Source: Clostridia bacterium DTU068 (GTDB lineage Bacteria > Bacillota > DSM-12270 > Thermacetogeniales > Thermacetogeniaceae). Taken from it: a DNA stretch of 46,457 nucleotides. Positions within the stretch are counted from its first letter, which is position 1. Each line of letters opens with the position of its first letter. Where the stretch lies: contig LFTQ01000046.1 in the NCBI GenBank assembly GCA_001513545.1, forward strand, positions 15,574 through 62,030. Reading direction: 5' to 3'. The position numbers and the translations under genes were made by a program. Positions 21,229 through 27,478 of this stretch are shown piece after piece. The notes under the pieces were generated by a model. That model was not told where the DNA came from. It was given only the letters and a program-made list of their open reading frames with translations, and ran no database searches.

Positions 21229-23718
21229 TCACTTAACAACTAAATTGACCAGTTTATTAGGAACACAGATCACCTTGACCAGCTCTTTACCCTGAATCAG
21301 ATTAGCAACCTTGGGTTGGGAAAGCACCGCTTCCTCCATTTTTTTATTGTCCAGCCCTACCGGGACCTGTATGTGATCCCGCACACGTCCATTGATCTGA
21401 ACAACAATTGTGATCTCCTCTTCCTTTAATGCTTCCCTGTCCACCTGAGGCCAGGGCTGCTCATGCACACTGCCCTTATTCCCCAATACCTCCCATAGTT
21501 CTTCAGCAAAATGAGGGGTAAAAGGAGCAAGAAGAAGAGCTAGGGTGGTGAGCCCCTCACTGAGCACCCCTTTGTGCCATTGTTCTTGATCCATCCCTTC
21601 AATATAGTGATAAAAGGCATTGGTCAGTTCCATGATGGCACTTACCGCTGTATTGAAGTTAAACCTGGTCTTGATGTCATCTTCTACCCGCTGAATGGTT
21701 CTGTGGATAACCCGCCGTAGATCCTTTTCAGCAGAGGACAGAGATGAAACCTGCCACTCCACCTTTTCTTTGACTTTAGGTGCTACACGCTGCACCAATC
21801 GCCATACCCGGTTGATAAAGCGATAAGCACCCTCCACTCCCTGGTCGCTCCAGTCCAGATCCCGCTCCGGAGGAGCAGCAAAGAGAATAAAGAGCCGAGC
21901 GGTATCTGCACCGTAGTTTTCAATGATCTCCTCAGGACTGACAACATTCCCTTTGGATTTCGACATTTTGAAACCATCTTTTAATACCATTCCCTGGGTG
22001 AGCAGGTTGGTAAATGGCTCATCAACGGTAACCAGATTTTGATCATAAAGCACCTTGGTAATAAAGCGGGAATACATCAGGTGCAATATGGCATGCTCCA
22101 CCCCACCGATATACTGGTCAACAGGCATCCAATAAGCAACTTTTTCCGGGTCAAAGGGCTGTTCATCCCGGGGGCTGCAATAACGCAAGAAATACCATGA
22201 GGAGCAAACAAAGGTATCTATTGTGTCTGTTTCCCGGCGTGCCGGTGCTCCGCACTGGGGACAGGTTGTATTTATGAAATGATCTGCTTTACGCAGTGGT
22301 GATTCTCCAGTGGGCTCAAAAGCCACATCCTCCGGGAGCAGCACCGGAAGGTCCTTTTCAGGTACAGGCACAATTCCGCAGTGGTCACAGTAGATAATAG
22401 GGATCGGTGCTCCCCAGTAGCGCTGTCTGGAGATGAGCCAGTCCCTGAGGCGGTAATTGACCTTCTCTTCTCCCAACCCCTTCTCTTTCATATGTTCAAT
22501 GATTCTTAGGCGAGCCACCTCACTGTCCATGCCGTCAAACTCCCCGGAATTGACCATAATACCGGGTTCCGGATAAGCCTCATCGATGGTGGCAGCATCC
22601 AGGTCCTTGCCTAGGGGCTGGATAACCACTTTTACCGGTAGCTGATATTTGCGAGCAAACTCCAGATCCCTCTGGTCATGGGCAGGCACACCCATTACCG
22701 CTCCTGTACCGTATTCCATTAAGACATAGTTGGCTACCCAGATGGGGATCTTTTCTTTACTTAAAGGATTAACAGCATAGGCTCCGGTGAAAATGCCCTC
22801 CTTTTCTCCTTCAGCAGAGGTCCGCTCCATTTCACTCTGTTTTTTTACTCTTGCCACAAACTCCCGTACCTTAGCTGCCTCTGCTTTATCCTTAATCAAC
22901 TCCTCAACCAGAGGATGCTCAGGGGCTAAAACCATATAGGTGACACCAAAAATAGTATCAGGCCTTGTGGTAAAAACCCTGATCTCTTTGCCATTCTCTG
23001 CTGTGAACCTGACCTCTGCGCCAACACTTCTGCCGATCCAGTTGGTCTGCATCAGCTTAACCTTTTCCGGCCATCCCGGTATTTTTTCCAGATCTTCCAA
23101 CAGACGGTCCGCATAAGCAGTGATCCGGAAGAACCACTGCTCCAGATCCTTTTTTTCTACCTCAGTGTCACACCGCTCACAGCAGCCGGCAACAACCTGC
23201 TCATTGGCAAGTACTGTAGCGCAGGAAGGGCACCAGTTCACCGCCTGTTTCTTCTTATAGGCTAATTTATTATGATAAAGCTGAAGGAAAAGCCATTGGG
23301 TAAAACGGTAGTAATCAGGATGGCAGGTAGCCACTTCCCTGGACCAATCATAGCTCAGACCCAATGACTTCAATTGACTGCGCATACTGTTGATATTGTC
23401 CCATGTCCACCTGGCGGGGTGTATGCGGTTCTTAATAGCAGCGTTTTCCGCCGGCAGTCCAAAGGCATCCCAACCCATAGGATGTAAAACATTTAAGCCC
23501 TGCATCTTAAAAAAACGTGCTAAAACATCCCCTATAGCATAGTTGCGGACATGGCCCATATGCAGCTTTCCTGAGGGGTAAGGAAACATCACCAGACAGT
23601 AATATTTCTGTTTTTCAGGATCCTCAGCAACCTGAAAAGCACCGCTTTCTTCCCAGCGCTGCTGCCACTTCTTCTCCACAACCCGAAAATTATATCTCGT
23701 ATCCAAACCACTCACCAT
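21229..23718 (-). CDS. leuS: Leucyl-tRNA synthetase
   Basis: '[30 protein letters not shown]', '[17 protein letters not shown]', '[16 protein letters not shown]'. Confidence 0.98.
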
Positions 23719-23798
23719 CCGTCTATGTTTTAAGATTCAGTTTGTTTTATTTCGATAGCTTATCTTACCCCGGCAGCTGAAACCGTTTTCCAATTACT

Positions 23799-23835
23799 AA
23801 AAACTCCCGCCCCTGTTAGTTCAGGGACGGGAGTT
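23799..23835 (-). terminator. T-box terminator upstream of leuS
   Basis: AACTCCCGTCCCTG / CAGGGGCGGGAGTT 14-bp stem (one G-U) followed by T-run; mutually exclusive with the antiterminator. Confidence 0.92.
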
Positions 23836-23869
23836 GTTCCCGTGGTACCACCCAGATTGGTAAATATAT

Positions 23870-23944
23870 TGGTGGAGCTGGCGGGAATCGAACCCGCGGC
23901 CTCTTCCATGCCAAGGAAGCGCGCTCCCGCTGCGCCACAGCCCC
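23870..23944 (-). tRNA. tRNA-Ala (anticodon GGC), CCA encoded
   Basis: GGGGCTG...CAGCTCC acceptor with G3-U70 (Ala identity pair), D stem GCGC/GCGC, anticodon arm CTTCC-TTGGCAT-GGAAG, T arm GCGGG-TTCGATT-CCCGC, discriminator A + CCA. Confidence 0.97.
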
Positions 23945-24130
23945 ATTATCTACCCACTTTAATTGCATATAACGCTTGCATTGCGTTACCGGCTAATAGG
24001 TTTCACCGGTACTGCTCCCGGGCGAGTTCAACCCCCGGCTCGGCCGCCGGCTCGCACCCCGTACAACCGGCTCTCTGAAGACCTGCCGGAGTGGGTTTAC
24101 TACTCCCGTTCCTCGCATTTGCCGAACCTT

Positions 24131-24159
24131 ATTATATGAAATATTCCGGTGTATGTCAA
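24131..24159 (-). promoter_or_regulatory. Consensus sigma-A promoter for the T-box/tRNA-Ala/leuS transcript
   Basis: TTGACA (24159-24154), 17-bp spacer, TATAAT (24136-24131); starts transcription just upstream of Stem I. Confidence 0.93.
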
Positions 24160-24233
24160 CACCGGATTTTCATTAATGTTGTTAAGCATCAGATAGAAAC
24201 TGCTCTGTGATCCACAGATCTTAAACCGATGCC

Positions 24234-24269
24234 GAAAAAAAACAGATAGGACTAGTTAAAACCCTACCT
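24234..24269 (-). terminator. Terminator of the SipW/LPXTG surface-protein operon
   Basis: Minus strand AGGTAGG-GTTTTAACTAGT-CCTATCT followed by a long T-run. Confidence 0.75.
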
Positions 24270-24293: not shown

Positions 24294-25097
24294 TTACTTT
24301 TTTCTCAGGACAGTAATGACAGCACCGATAAGCAGCATTGCTGCACCTGCAAAATAGTAGCAGACAGCATTGCCACCGGTTTTAGGCAGATCAACTATCC
24401 CTGCTACAACATCTTCTGATCCACTACCGTTTTCTCCCTCTTCTTCACTGACGATACTATCTGCAACCTCTGCGGCCTCCGCCGTCAGTATCAGATCAAA
24501 ACAATAGGAATGATTTTGCTCAGCTGCCTGCAGTACATGAAATTCAAGTGCACCTACCATAACTTCACCGGGATATTGGATGTCCCCGCCACTTCCAGTC
24601 CAGCGAATTTCCAGTACAGCATCATCAGGGGTGCTGGTCCCCTGTGATAGTTCTCCATTTCTATGCAGATAACAGATCAATCCTTCTAATATTTCTGCTG
24701 TTTTGCCTTGCCAGTTAATCACTGCTTTTTTCTTTTTTACCGCGATCTCTCCAAAATTCTTTATATCGATATTTATCTTGTTGTAATATGAAGGGTAAGC
24801 ATTCCCAACATCAATCTTTAAACTGTCATGAACACCATCATTATTGGCATCTTTTACTGACACACCGGTTGAACCAACATCCTTGCCCTCAGCTATCAAG
24901 CGGGGATTTTTCAATCCTGGATCACAGGTTTGGTCTGCACCGTGATCACTTTGAGACACAGTTTCCTCCAAGATACCCCAACCGAACTTACTGGTCTGGA
25001 CAGGGGTATCCATTATTGATTCTGAACTGGCAAAGGCATGATCCATCACAAAAAATGCCAGCATAAGGGTTAAAATAAAAAACGCCATTTTTTTCAT
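24294..25097 (-). CDS. Surface protein with LPXTG-type sorting signal (LPKTG)
   Basis: Sec signal peptide 'MKKMAFFILTLMLAFFVMDHAFA', C-terminal 'LPKTGGNAVCYYFAGAAMLLIGAVITVLRKK' (LPXTG + TM + positive tail). ORF called to 25106 (GTG); ATG 25097 preferred. Confidence 0.85.
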   Translation of the reverse strand: MKKMAFFILTLMLAFFVMDHAFASSESIMDTPVQTSKFGWGILEETVSQSDHGADQTCDPGLKNPRLIAEGKDVGSTGVSVKDANNDGVHDSLKIDVGNAYPSYYNKINIDIKNFGEIAVKKKKAVINWQGKTAEILEGLICYLHRNGELSQGTSTPDDAVLEIRWTGSGGDIQYPGEVMVGALEFHVLQAAEQNHSYCFDLILTAEAAEVADSIVSEEEGENGSGSEDVVAGIVDLPKTGGNAVCYYFAGAAMLLIGAVITVLRKK

Positions 25098-25193
25098 GTT
25101 ACACACTCCTTGCTAACCAGGAGTACCTTTTTTGTGAAAAAATGCAGCTAAGTCTAGAAGTGTATGGAATACTAAATAATGGAATAACAGTCG

Positions 25194-26294
25194 TCAACTT
25201 TCAGAAAACTCTACTTGACTGCACCTTGGAGAAGAAATTACCTCATCGGGCAGCTGAGGAGCCTGGAGCATGTGCTGGTAAACCGTCAAGCCATCGATAA
25301 CATAGCAGGCAGGAACATCATGATCAAGGCCGATCTCCTGGTAAATAATAGGTTTACACGCTTCATCAGCCACTTTTATCAAATCTTCTATTGAAGGAAG
25401 GGAAATAGGGATTAGCTGATCAGGCATTATAAAATCCTTCCCTAACCTTACCATACGCTCACCATTCTGTTTCCACAGCTTATCTATCGCACAGTCGATC
25501 TCACTTACCGGCACAGGCTTTTTTGATTCGGTCCGCAGGACAAAGAGAATAGAGAGCAGCATTAAAACCCCCGCTAGTAAAGCCGCAATGACTTTCTTCC
25601 CTCTCAGCCCAGGATTGGGAACTAGCACAGAGTCTTTCAGAGCCCCATCCTCCTGCGGCGCAATTGTTCCGTCTATCTTAAACTCACTCATACCTAAAGG
25701 GATGACCATAGATGGTGTCAGCTCATCTCTGACCTGGCCATCAGCTGTTTCAGCAGCCACATTGATCCTTGCCTCAATAGTAACTTGTGGATTGTTAGCA
25801 TACACTCCCAGTTCCCGGTTGACAGTGTTCACAAACTCCTCAAAATTTTCTAGATTAAAGGAAAAAGGCCTAGAAAAAGAAATCTCTTTCCCTTCCCCTT
25901 CAACTACCGTTTTAGGAACAAGAGGAAATTCCTTAGCCCACACTTCAGGTTCTTCGACTACCGCCACAACCATATAAGATGCAGTCAATTTAGCTGGTTG
26001 GTCAGCAGTATAGCTGTAAGAACAATGAGCATCAAATGCTTCAACAAGATTTGAATAATATGATTCACCTGGTCCCAAGGTTTTTTCATTGAACACACTG
26101 TTAGGCTTGATTTGAACTTGATAATCGAGCTTCCCTTGATGCTGGTAGCTGTATACCGGAACCTCCTTAGATACAGTGGACGGTTCACTGTATACCCTAT
26201 ATAAATTATAAAAAGAACCGGCTAACAACAGACACAAGACTGCCAAAATAATGATTCTAGTATTTTTGTGTATCTCTATTTTGCACTGGCGCAT
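25194..26294 (-). CDS. DUF5305-like membrane-anchored protein
   Basis: Two TM segments flanking a large extracytoplasmic domain; next to a SipW-type peptidase. ATG at 26294 with GAGAGGAAAGGGG RBS; ORF called to 26348. Family name by recognition only. Confidence 0.6.
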   Translation of the reverse strand: MRQCKIEIHKNTRIIILAVLCLLLAGSFYNLYRVYSEPSTVSKEVPVYSYQHQGKLDYQVQIKPNSVFNEKTLGPGESYYSNLVEAFDAHCSYSYTADQPAKLTASYMVVAVVEEPEVWAKEFPLVPKTVVEGEGKEISFSRPFSFNLENFEEFVNTVNRELGVYANNPQVTIEARINVAAETADGQVRDELTPSMVIPLGMSEFKIDGTIAPQEDGALKDSVLVPNPGLRGKKVIAALLAGVLMLLSILFVLRTESKKPVPVSEIDCAIDKLWKQNGERMVRLGKDFIMPDQLIPISLPSIEDLIKVADEACKPIIYQEIGLDHDVPACYVIDGLTVYQHMLQAPQLPDEVISSPRCSQVEFSES

Positions 26295-26311
26295 TTGGCA
26301 CCCCTTTCCTC

Positions 26312-27478
26312 TCAAATGAACATATTCCTTACAGCTATCGATATCCATCCCACTTTAGGAGCGACAAACACTACCGCTCCATTAACCTGCTCTGGTACAA
26401 TCGGCTGATCATCCTGTTCATTGTTATCCCCTTTAGTTATGATCGTCTTGTCTCTATTTATCTTTTTAATCCGGTGGACAACAGGAACAGGTGAATCCTT
26501 AATTCGGTAAGAAATAATATCCCCCTCTTTTAAAAGAGCCGGCTCTTTTTTAGCCACAATAACAATATCACCGGCATCAAAAGCAGGACGCATACTACCA
26601 CTGTAAATAACGATTGGACGCACTGGAAAAACACCTATAGAGAACCAGATGATCCCCACCAGCACCGCCCCGAAGACTGCTGTGCTGACATATCCCGTTT
26701 CCTGCTTTTTGGGTCTTCTGCGGGGGATACGCTGATCAGCATAAAATTCTTGGATAACCGCCAACCCCACTAAAGGGACCACTGTGCCGACAAGAGCCTT
26801 CATCGCCCAGTTAAGGTCGGGAAGGATGGGAGAAAACCATTCAAATGCCTCCAATATACCGCTGTAAGCCAGAGCAGGCACAGGCCCACCCCACATTGCC
26901 AGGAAAGAGGCCAGCAGCTGTTTCAGCGAAATGGGAAGAAATGTGGAGCCGAAAAACTGTGTCCAGGCTTCCAGAGTGCTTCCCCAGGATGGGAATTTAC
27001 TTATTGGGATGGTAAGTAATGTATAAAACAATGCCAACAGAATAGGAACCGCGACATAAGGTTTACGCAGCAGTCTGTTAATCAACCACGCCCTGCTCAG
27101 TTCCATCCCGATCAGTATGCTCATCACATAGAAGATATTGATCAGAATACCGCCGATTGTAAAAGAATATGGGCTCCTGCCGAAACCATCAAAAAAACCG
27201 GCCAGCACCATCAAATATATCTGAAAGAGAGCAATGCCACAGGCAATCTTAATCAGAGCCGGCTGCAGCCGCTGTTTCCCACAGCTCTTTTGTCGAGGGA
27301 GGCGAATGACATAGAGCGCTATGACTATCCAGGCCAGAGGGTTAGCTATATAAGCTGCAGCTGCTCCTGTTAAAAAACGGGGCACAATATACCTAACCAA
27401 GAGCGGGAGCAAAAGAACCGCCCCTAAAACAAGCCACCAGTCAACTGGGATAGTGATTCTCTTGTTCATTCCACTCAT
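26312..27478 (-). CDS. SipW-type (S26B) signal peptidase I with multi-TM N-terminal extension
   Basis: 'VIYSGSMRPAFDAGDIVIV' (catalytic Ser), 'GDIISYRIKDSPVPVVHRI' (His base of the ER/SipW type), 'ITKGDNNEQDD'; about 280 aa of hydrophobic N-terminus. Confidence 0.88.
   Translation of the reverse strand: MSGMNKRITIPVDWWLVLGAVLLLPLLVRYIVPRFLTGAAAAYIANPLAWIVIALYVIRLPRQKSCGKQRLQPALIKIACGIALFQIYLMVLAGFFDGFGRSPYSFTIGGILINIFYVMSILIGMELSRAWLINRLLRKPYVAVPILLALFYTLLTIPISKFPSWGSTLEAWTQFFGSTFLPISLKQLLASFLAMWGGPVPALAYSGILEAFEWFSPILPDLNWAMKALVGTVVPLVGLAVIQEFYADQRIPRRRPKKQETGYVSTAVFGAVLVGIIWFSIGVFPVRPIVIYSGSMRPAFDAGDIVIVAKKEPALLKEGDIISYRIKDSPVPVVHRIKKINRDKTIITKGDNNEQDDQPIVPEQVNGAVVFVAPKVGWISIAVRNMFI

Follow-up and report, generated by a model that had tools for sequence, protein, structure and literature searches.

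A complete tRNA-Ala(GGC) gene lies inside the T-box leader of leuS in Clostridia bacterium DTU068, where alignment, folding, and covariation indicate that it forms the loop, or cap, of Stem III, with the helix kept around it. At the sequence level, the leader has every defining feature of its class and is best described as a T-box variant. T-boxes sense tRNA; this one harbors a tRNA gene as well, with the sensor helix preserved. The anatomy of the locus, the covariation of Stem III, the conservation of the arrangement, and the lack of any other tRNA-Ala(GGC) gene in the assembly were established directly. All coordinates below refer to the window, the whole stretch of 46,457 nucleotides of DNA that was analyzed.

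Anatomy of the leuS leader

A cmscan search of the window gave a single, full-length match to the T-box family RF00230 (24122-23820, minus strand, 119.4 bits, E = 5.6e-26, model positions 1-219 of 219), well above the gathering score of 93 bits, and the tRNA appears as an insert within this one alignment. The original prediction of a complete tRNA-Ala(GGC) gene in a leuS T-box was thus borne out, as the same match spans the tRNA called by both ARAGORN and RF00005. Upstream, at 24131-24159 (minus strand), sits a putative sigma-70-type promoter, TTGACA-N17-TATAAT, that agrees with the consensus at 12 of 12 positions, as had been claimed, and for which transcription would be expected to start near 24124. 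It was the only such sequence in 23650-24250, and no second promoter-like site was found there, including between the tRNA and the T-box sequence, where an independent leuS promoter might have been placed. An 8-pair palindrome, TCCGGTG-TTGACA-TACACCGGA (24166-24145), overlaps the -35 box and is a possible operator; if so, the promoter of leuS and the tRNA would be regulated, a point against constitutive expression. Farther upstream, 24294-27478 holds genes on the same strand; by eye, one of them encodes a protein whose C-terminal region carries an LPKTG-like sorting motif, and another a predicted signal-peptidase-like protein.

The RF00230 alignment assigns the leader, all on the minus strand, to Stem I (24014-24117, with AGAGAG at 24076-24071), Stem II (23987-24011), and the Stem IIA/B element with its F-box GCGTTA (23970-23986). 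The specifier loop in Stem I reads GAA-CTC, and the alignment places CTC at 24026-24024, confirming the earlier assignment of a Leu specifier; this codon agrees with the downstream gene, and the expected ligand, tRNA-Leu(GAG), is present in the source genome. Stem III follows, with its 5' arm GGTAGATA at 23947-23954, the tRNA gene at 23870-23944 (RF00005, 68.5 bits), and its 3' arm TATTTACC at 23859-23866. The antiterminator (23823-23854) contains the T-box sequence GGGTGGTACCACGGG, with the core GGGTGGTACC at 23853-23844, and its UGGU bulge matches the ACCA end of tRNA. It competes with an intrinsic terminator predicted from the fold and sequence, a 14-pair stem AACTCCCGTCCCTG/CAGGGGCGGGAGTT followed by a T run (TTTTT) at 23799-23835. 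The controlled gene, leuS, encodes a leucyl-tRNA synthetase of 829 amino acids (21229-23718). The conserved T-box sequence, the competing antiterminator and terminator, and a Stem III that follows the F-box element together place the leader in the T-box class. With Stem I called upstream of the tRNA by the covariance model, one promoter, and one antiterminator, which lies downstream of the tRNA with no separate complete copy before it, nothing that the original prediction had named as speaking against it was seen.

The embedded tRNA has a complete cloverleaf with a GGC anticodon, G3-U70, A73, and an encoded CCA. Examination of the tRNA matches in the source assembly revealed no second tRNA-Ala(GGC) gene; the assembly is 89.7% complete, so that a further copy could be missing from it. 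Of 100 leaders, 78 have U at position -1 of the tRNA, compared with about 20% T at nearby positions; RNase P prefers U there. A plasmid search with the locus as query gave no match.

Stem III as the insertion site

The tRNA had been placed between Stem III and the antiterminator, with TAACGC/GCGTTA (~23987-23970) taken as Stem III. That helix is in fact the IIA/B element with the F-box, and both the Rfam alignment and covariation put the tRNA in the Stem III loop instead. The order in the alignment is GGTAGATA (23954-23947), AT, the tRNA, and TATTTACC (23866-23859). In RNAfold predictions, the minimum-energy structure and the centroid agreed in setting Stem III directly below the acceptor stem, and the whole leader folded better than 100 of 100 shuffled sequences (z = -2.8).

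Covariation was assessed with two anchors, AGNG, which the 5' arm follows, and AANNNNGGTGG, which the 3' arm precedes; 17 of 102 leaders lacked these anchors and were omitted. Across 52 distinct leaders, 252 of the 312 cells at six Stem III pairs were paired (80.8%), compared with 22 to 50% when one arm was slid by 1 to 3 bases, and two-sided compensatory changes were seen at all six pairs. In an eight-pair version, 412 of the 552 cells were paired; none of 1,000 shuffles exceeded 350. The slide control preserves relatedness and the shuffle control does not, and the results of the two were concordant. An earlier, unanchored test, which compared the best helix anywhere with that of swapped arms, had shown a modest gap (8.1 versus 6.4) because related sequences have common arms, and it was superseded by the anchored arms with slide controls. 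In some relatives, Stem III is short or weakly paired.

Leaders without a tRNA point to the same site. In tRNA-free leuS T-boxes of the same phylum, a tiny loop caps Stem III, as in GGTAA-TTTA-TTACC of locus L187, whose leader reads GAGTGG-GTAATTTATTACC-AATGTGGGTGG at the place of tRNA insertion; the tRNA therefore substitutes for the Stem III loop. Stem III can evidently carry a folded RNA of 75 nt and yet remain under selection as a helix.

Distribution and decay among relatives

The original prediction pictured a tRNA module inserted locally into one riboswitch and proposed a search of related genomes for leuS T-boxes with an internal tRNA; the search revealed a widespread arrangement. With a pattern requiring a tRNA T-arm and then the T-box sequence within 15-45 nt, 19 of 20 genomes of the source family matched, and the twentieth (locus L184) keeps the promoter, tRNA, and terminator, so that the arrangement is conserved in all 20, more often than chance would allow. 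In a phylum sample, 90 of 399 genomes matched a looser pattern that includes some chance matches, and a reversed control pattern gave far fewer. The phylum of a Thermomicrobia locus yielded 13 of 101 genomes, and the control gave no match. Across 85,462 species scanned, more loci exist than the matches listed; among those listed, ARAGORN filtering left at least about 100 distinct loci in which tRNA-Ala(GGC) adjoins a T-box. By record title, these fall in Bacillota, Chloroflexota, Thermomicrobiota, Armatimonadota, Atribacterota, Coprothermobacterota, Caldisericota, and Actinomycetota; single loci titled Pseudomonadota and Bdellovibrionota come from metagenome bins and are possibly mislabeled. 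Recurrence in about 100 loci and roughly eight phyla speaks against an accident and for an arrangement that is old and has been maintained.

The leaders keep their architecture. Six divergent loci gave T-box matches above the gathering score that span the tRNA, and at a lower threshold all nine of nine further divergent loci did so as well (E between 1e-8 and 1e-21), one of them also above the gathering score. The specifier is CTC in nearly all relatives, some embedded leaders reading CTCA or CTCGT, and the F-box motif CGTTA is discernible in most of the relatives listed. Among 102 relatives, the promoter agrees with the consensus at 12 of 12 positions in 37 and at 11 of 12 in 29 (66 of 102 together), and terminator-like hairpins occur in 85. 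A TTGTCG-17-TATAAT sequence at -70 of the tRNA in Ktedonobacteria, a candidate internal promoter, was judged probably incidental to the F-box sequence. The next long open reading frame is leuS in the great majority of the roughly 100 loci.

No embedded tRNA other than Ala(GGC) was found among the matches listed. The few Ser, Gln, and Gly hits of the pattern scan lie outside T-boxes and were rejected; those to Ser and Gln have neither leuS nor a T-box context, and locus L165 is a tRNA cluster of Gemmatimonadota.

Several variants were noted. An acyl-CoA ligase gene separates the T-box from leuS in some Desulfotomaculum-like genera: L071 and L141, and similar reading frames in L086, L113, and L164, have the tRNA-bearing T-box ahead of this gene, an order found in Desulfotruncus, Desulfallas, and probably Desulfofundulus. 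leuS follows the ligase gene in L141, and its start is visible in L086 and L113. In L057-L064, L083, L144, and L168, just 41-48 nt separate the specifier from the tRNA downstream, and Stem II and the IIA/B element are apparently missing; Stem III with its tRNA is kept. Locus L030 carries tandem repeat copies starting GTGCGCCCGGCATGGGCG, resembling group II intron RNA, just after the T-box terminator and has no leuS within 1.5 kb.

Two relatives have lost parts of the sensor. In L184 (~1150-1485), of the source family, the Leu specifier and GGTGGTACC are gone, and a perfect promoter, the tRNA-Ala, and the terminator are retained. In L025, a 12-of-12 promoter lies only 93 nt before the tRNA, and the tRNA, T-box sequence, and terminator remain; neither an AG bulge nor a specifier motif was found in it, which together with the short spacing suggests that Stem I was deleted. 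These natural deletions, in which promoter, tRNA, and terminator outlast parts of the sensor, argue for a need for the tRNA that does not depend on the T-box.

When the presence of a tRNA in the leader was mapped on a tree of 104 LeuRS sequences, at least 11 changes were required, compared with 25 expected under shuffled labels, and well-supported branches force 6 of these changes; the tree is quick and unrooted and does not fix the number of gains. Since the tRNA identity, anticodon, insertion point, and neighboring gene are constant, it is simpler to assume one ancient acquisition followed by repeated loss, and perhaps occasional transfer, than several separate gains.

A probable composite unit and the alternatives to it

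The near-consensus promoters (12 or 11 of 12 positions), the lack of another tRNA-Ala(GGC) gene, the presence of tRNA-Leu(GAG), and the U at -1 lead us to read the locus as one unit. We consider it probable that this unit is composite: the promoter would supply tRNA-Ala on each transcript, and uncharged tRNA-Leu(GAG) would decide read-through into leuS. Co-transcription, constitutive tRNA output, the order of events, and regulation by tRNA-Leu are the parts of this scheme that we infer. One strong, apparently constitutive promoter would initiate the whole RNA, and the near-consensus promoters of the relatives would fit a stable-RNA promoter. Stems I, II, and IIA/B would fold first, then Stem III with the tRNA-Ala precursor at its apex, then the antiterminator/terminator switch, with leuS beyond. 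As had been pointed out, the tRNA (23944-23870) precedes the terminator (23835-23799, minus strand), and its place ahead of the decision point means that each pass would transcribe it. With tRNA-Leu(GAG) charged, the terminator would form and leave a short RNA that amounts to a tRNA-Ala precursor ending in a terminator of its own. Uncharged tRNA-Leu(GAG) would pair with the CTC specifier and the UGGU bulge, stabilize the antiterminator, and permit read-through into leuS.

The pre-tRNA would stack on Stem III, with the helix extending the acceptor stem, and its presence may be tolerated because only the variable loop is replaced and the helix is kept. RNase P, aided by the U at -1, and 3' processing would then free tRNA-Ala, probably after the decision has been made. 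The original prediction raised the worry that this processing would separate the sensor from the expression platform; the arms of Stem III could still join the two halves of the leader once the tRNA is excised, which would weaken that worry. A single promoter and terminator may suffice for a stable RNA as well as for an enzyme gene under attenuation, in an arrangement long-lived across many phyla. tRNA folding, RNase P cleavage, and the antitermination decision would all take place within about 150 nt of nascent transcript, making the leader a testable case.

A tRNA that landed once in an ancestral Stem III loop and was kept as the sole tRNA-Ala(GGC) gene, with no coupling and no benefit, would account for the constant tRNA identity, for the lack of another Ala(GGC) gene found in the source assembly, and for the persistence of the tRNA where the T-box has decayed (L184) or Stem I is lost (L025). 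We regard such a neutral passenger as unlikely: the common strong promoter and terminator are themselves retained, and the explanation departs from that of a composite unit only by denying a benefit of sharing. We are still more doubtful that the pre-tRNA is part of the switch, such that its folding, its RNase P or 3' processing, or its binding by AlaRS or RNase P would tune leuS antitermination as a second input. It would do so by altering Stem III or when the antiterminator forms, and leuS would then respond to the maturation of tRNA-Ala as well as to the charging of tRNA-Leu. The constancy of the Stem III apex and of Ala-GGC in about eight phyla, despite varying T-box details, speaks for such an input, and Stem III, which also pairs the leader of the pre-tRNA with its trailer, could slow RNase P. 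However, the same constancy is expected from one ancient event and inheritance, no specific contact between the tRNA body and the leader was seen, and the same phylum also has leuS T-boxes that share the specifier but hold no tRNA, which argues that the tRNA is dispensable for switching. If a second input did operate, alanine-tRNA maturation would be coupled to leucyl-tRNA synthetase supply, and the use of a functional tRNA as a structural domain of a riboswitch would predate the divergence of several bacterial phyla.

A two-codon T-box, in which the loop reads CTC-GCC and tRNA-Ala(GGC) also binds at GCC, would make use of the GAACTCGCC found in many leaders; it is highly improbable, given that CC is paired at the loop base in the Rfam model, that some embedded leaders read CTCA or CTCGT, and that tRNA-free leuS T-boxes share the CTCG context, so that a second codon has no link to the presence of an embedded tRNA. 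tRNA genes and T-boxes may adjoin in principle, but a tRNA-Ala gene merely abutting an independent leuS T-box is scarcely credible here, and the single riboswitch originally proposed stands, as one T-box match, with Stems I, II, and IIA/B upstream of the tRNA and the antiterminator downstream, spans Stem III arms that covary across the tRNA, and one promoter and one antiterminator serve the whole.

Relation to known RNAs

Compared with transcriptional RF00230 T-boxes that carry a Leu-CTC specifier ahead of leuS, the composite leader shares the Stem I AG bulge, specifier loop, and apical motif, Stem II, the F-box, Stem III, the GGGTGGTACC antiterminator, the terminator, and the downstream aminoacyl-tRNA synthetase gene. 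It differs in that a whole tRNA-Ala gene replaces the Stem III loop, that the leader is about 75 nt longer, and, as proposed above, that it would yield a stable RNA besides the leuS decision. Annotation pipelines that limit T-box length or mask tRNAs will conceal this whole class of leaders. The tRNA-tufB operon of Escherichia coli also has tRNA genes co-transcribed with a protein gene, the tRNA being processed from an mRNA-containing transcript; there the tRNA is a separate element before the gene, whereas here it is nested in a folded regulatory RNA.

The nearest precedent for a structured noncoding RNA with a predicted internal tRNA gene is GOLLD, a large phage-associated RNA of obscure function; PMC6582537, which cites the original report, describes the predicted tRNA and adds that the inner tRNA of mycobacterial GOLLD is a pseudo-tRNA whose expression was not detected. 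Unlike the leuS leader, GOLLD as outlined there includes neither a riboswitch nor an aminoacyl-tRNA synthetase gene. T-box reviews, a database paper, and surveys (PMC7778990, PMC7583486, PMC2494555, and PMC12452182) make no mention, in the passages searched, of a tRNA gene inside a T-box. We likewise found no description of a T-box variant of this kind, although priority is uncertain pending Vitreschak 2008 and Gutierrez-Preciado 2009.

Tandem or contiguous T-boxes resemble the present leader in having several RNA elements ahead of an aminoacyl-tRNA synthetase or biosynthesis gene. They are repeated riboswitches, whereas here a tRNA gene lies within one T-box, and according to a survey of tandem T-boxes, aminoacyl-tRNA synthetase genes except thrS typically have a single T-box (PMC12452182). 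Elsewhere in the source genome (G000:C214:152-551; loci L006 and L011), two T-box matches of 102.7 and 32.3 bits lie back to back and are possibly tandem.
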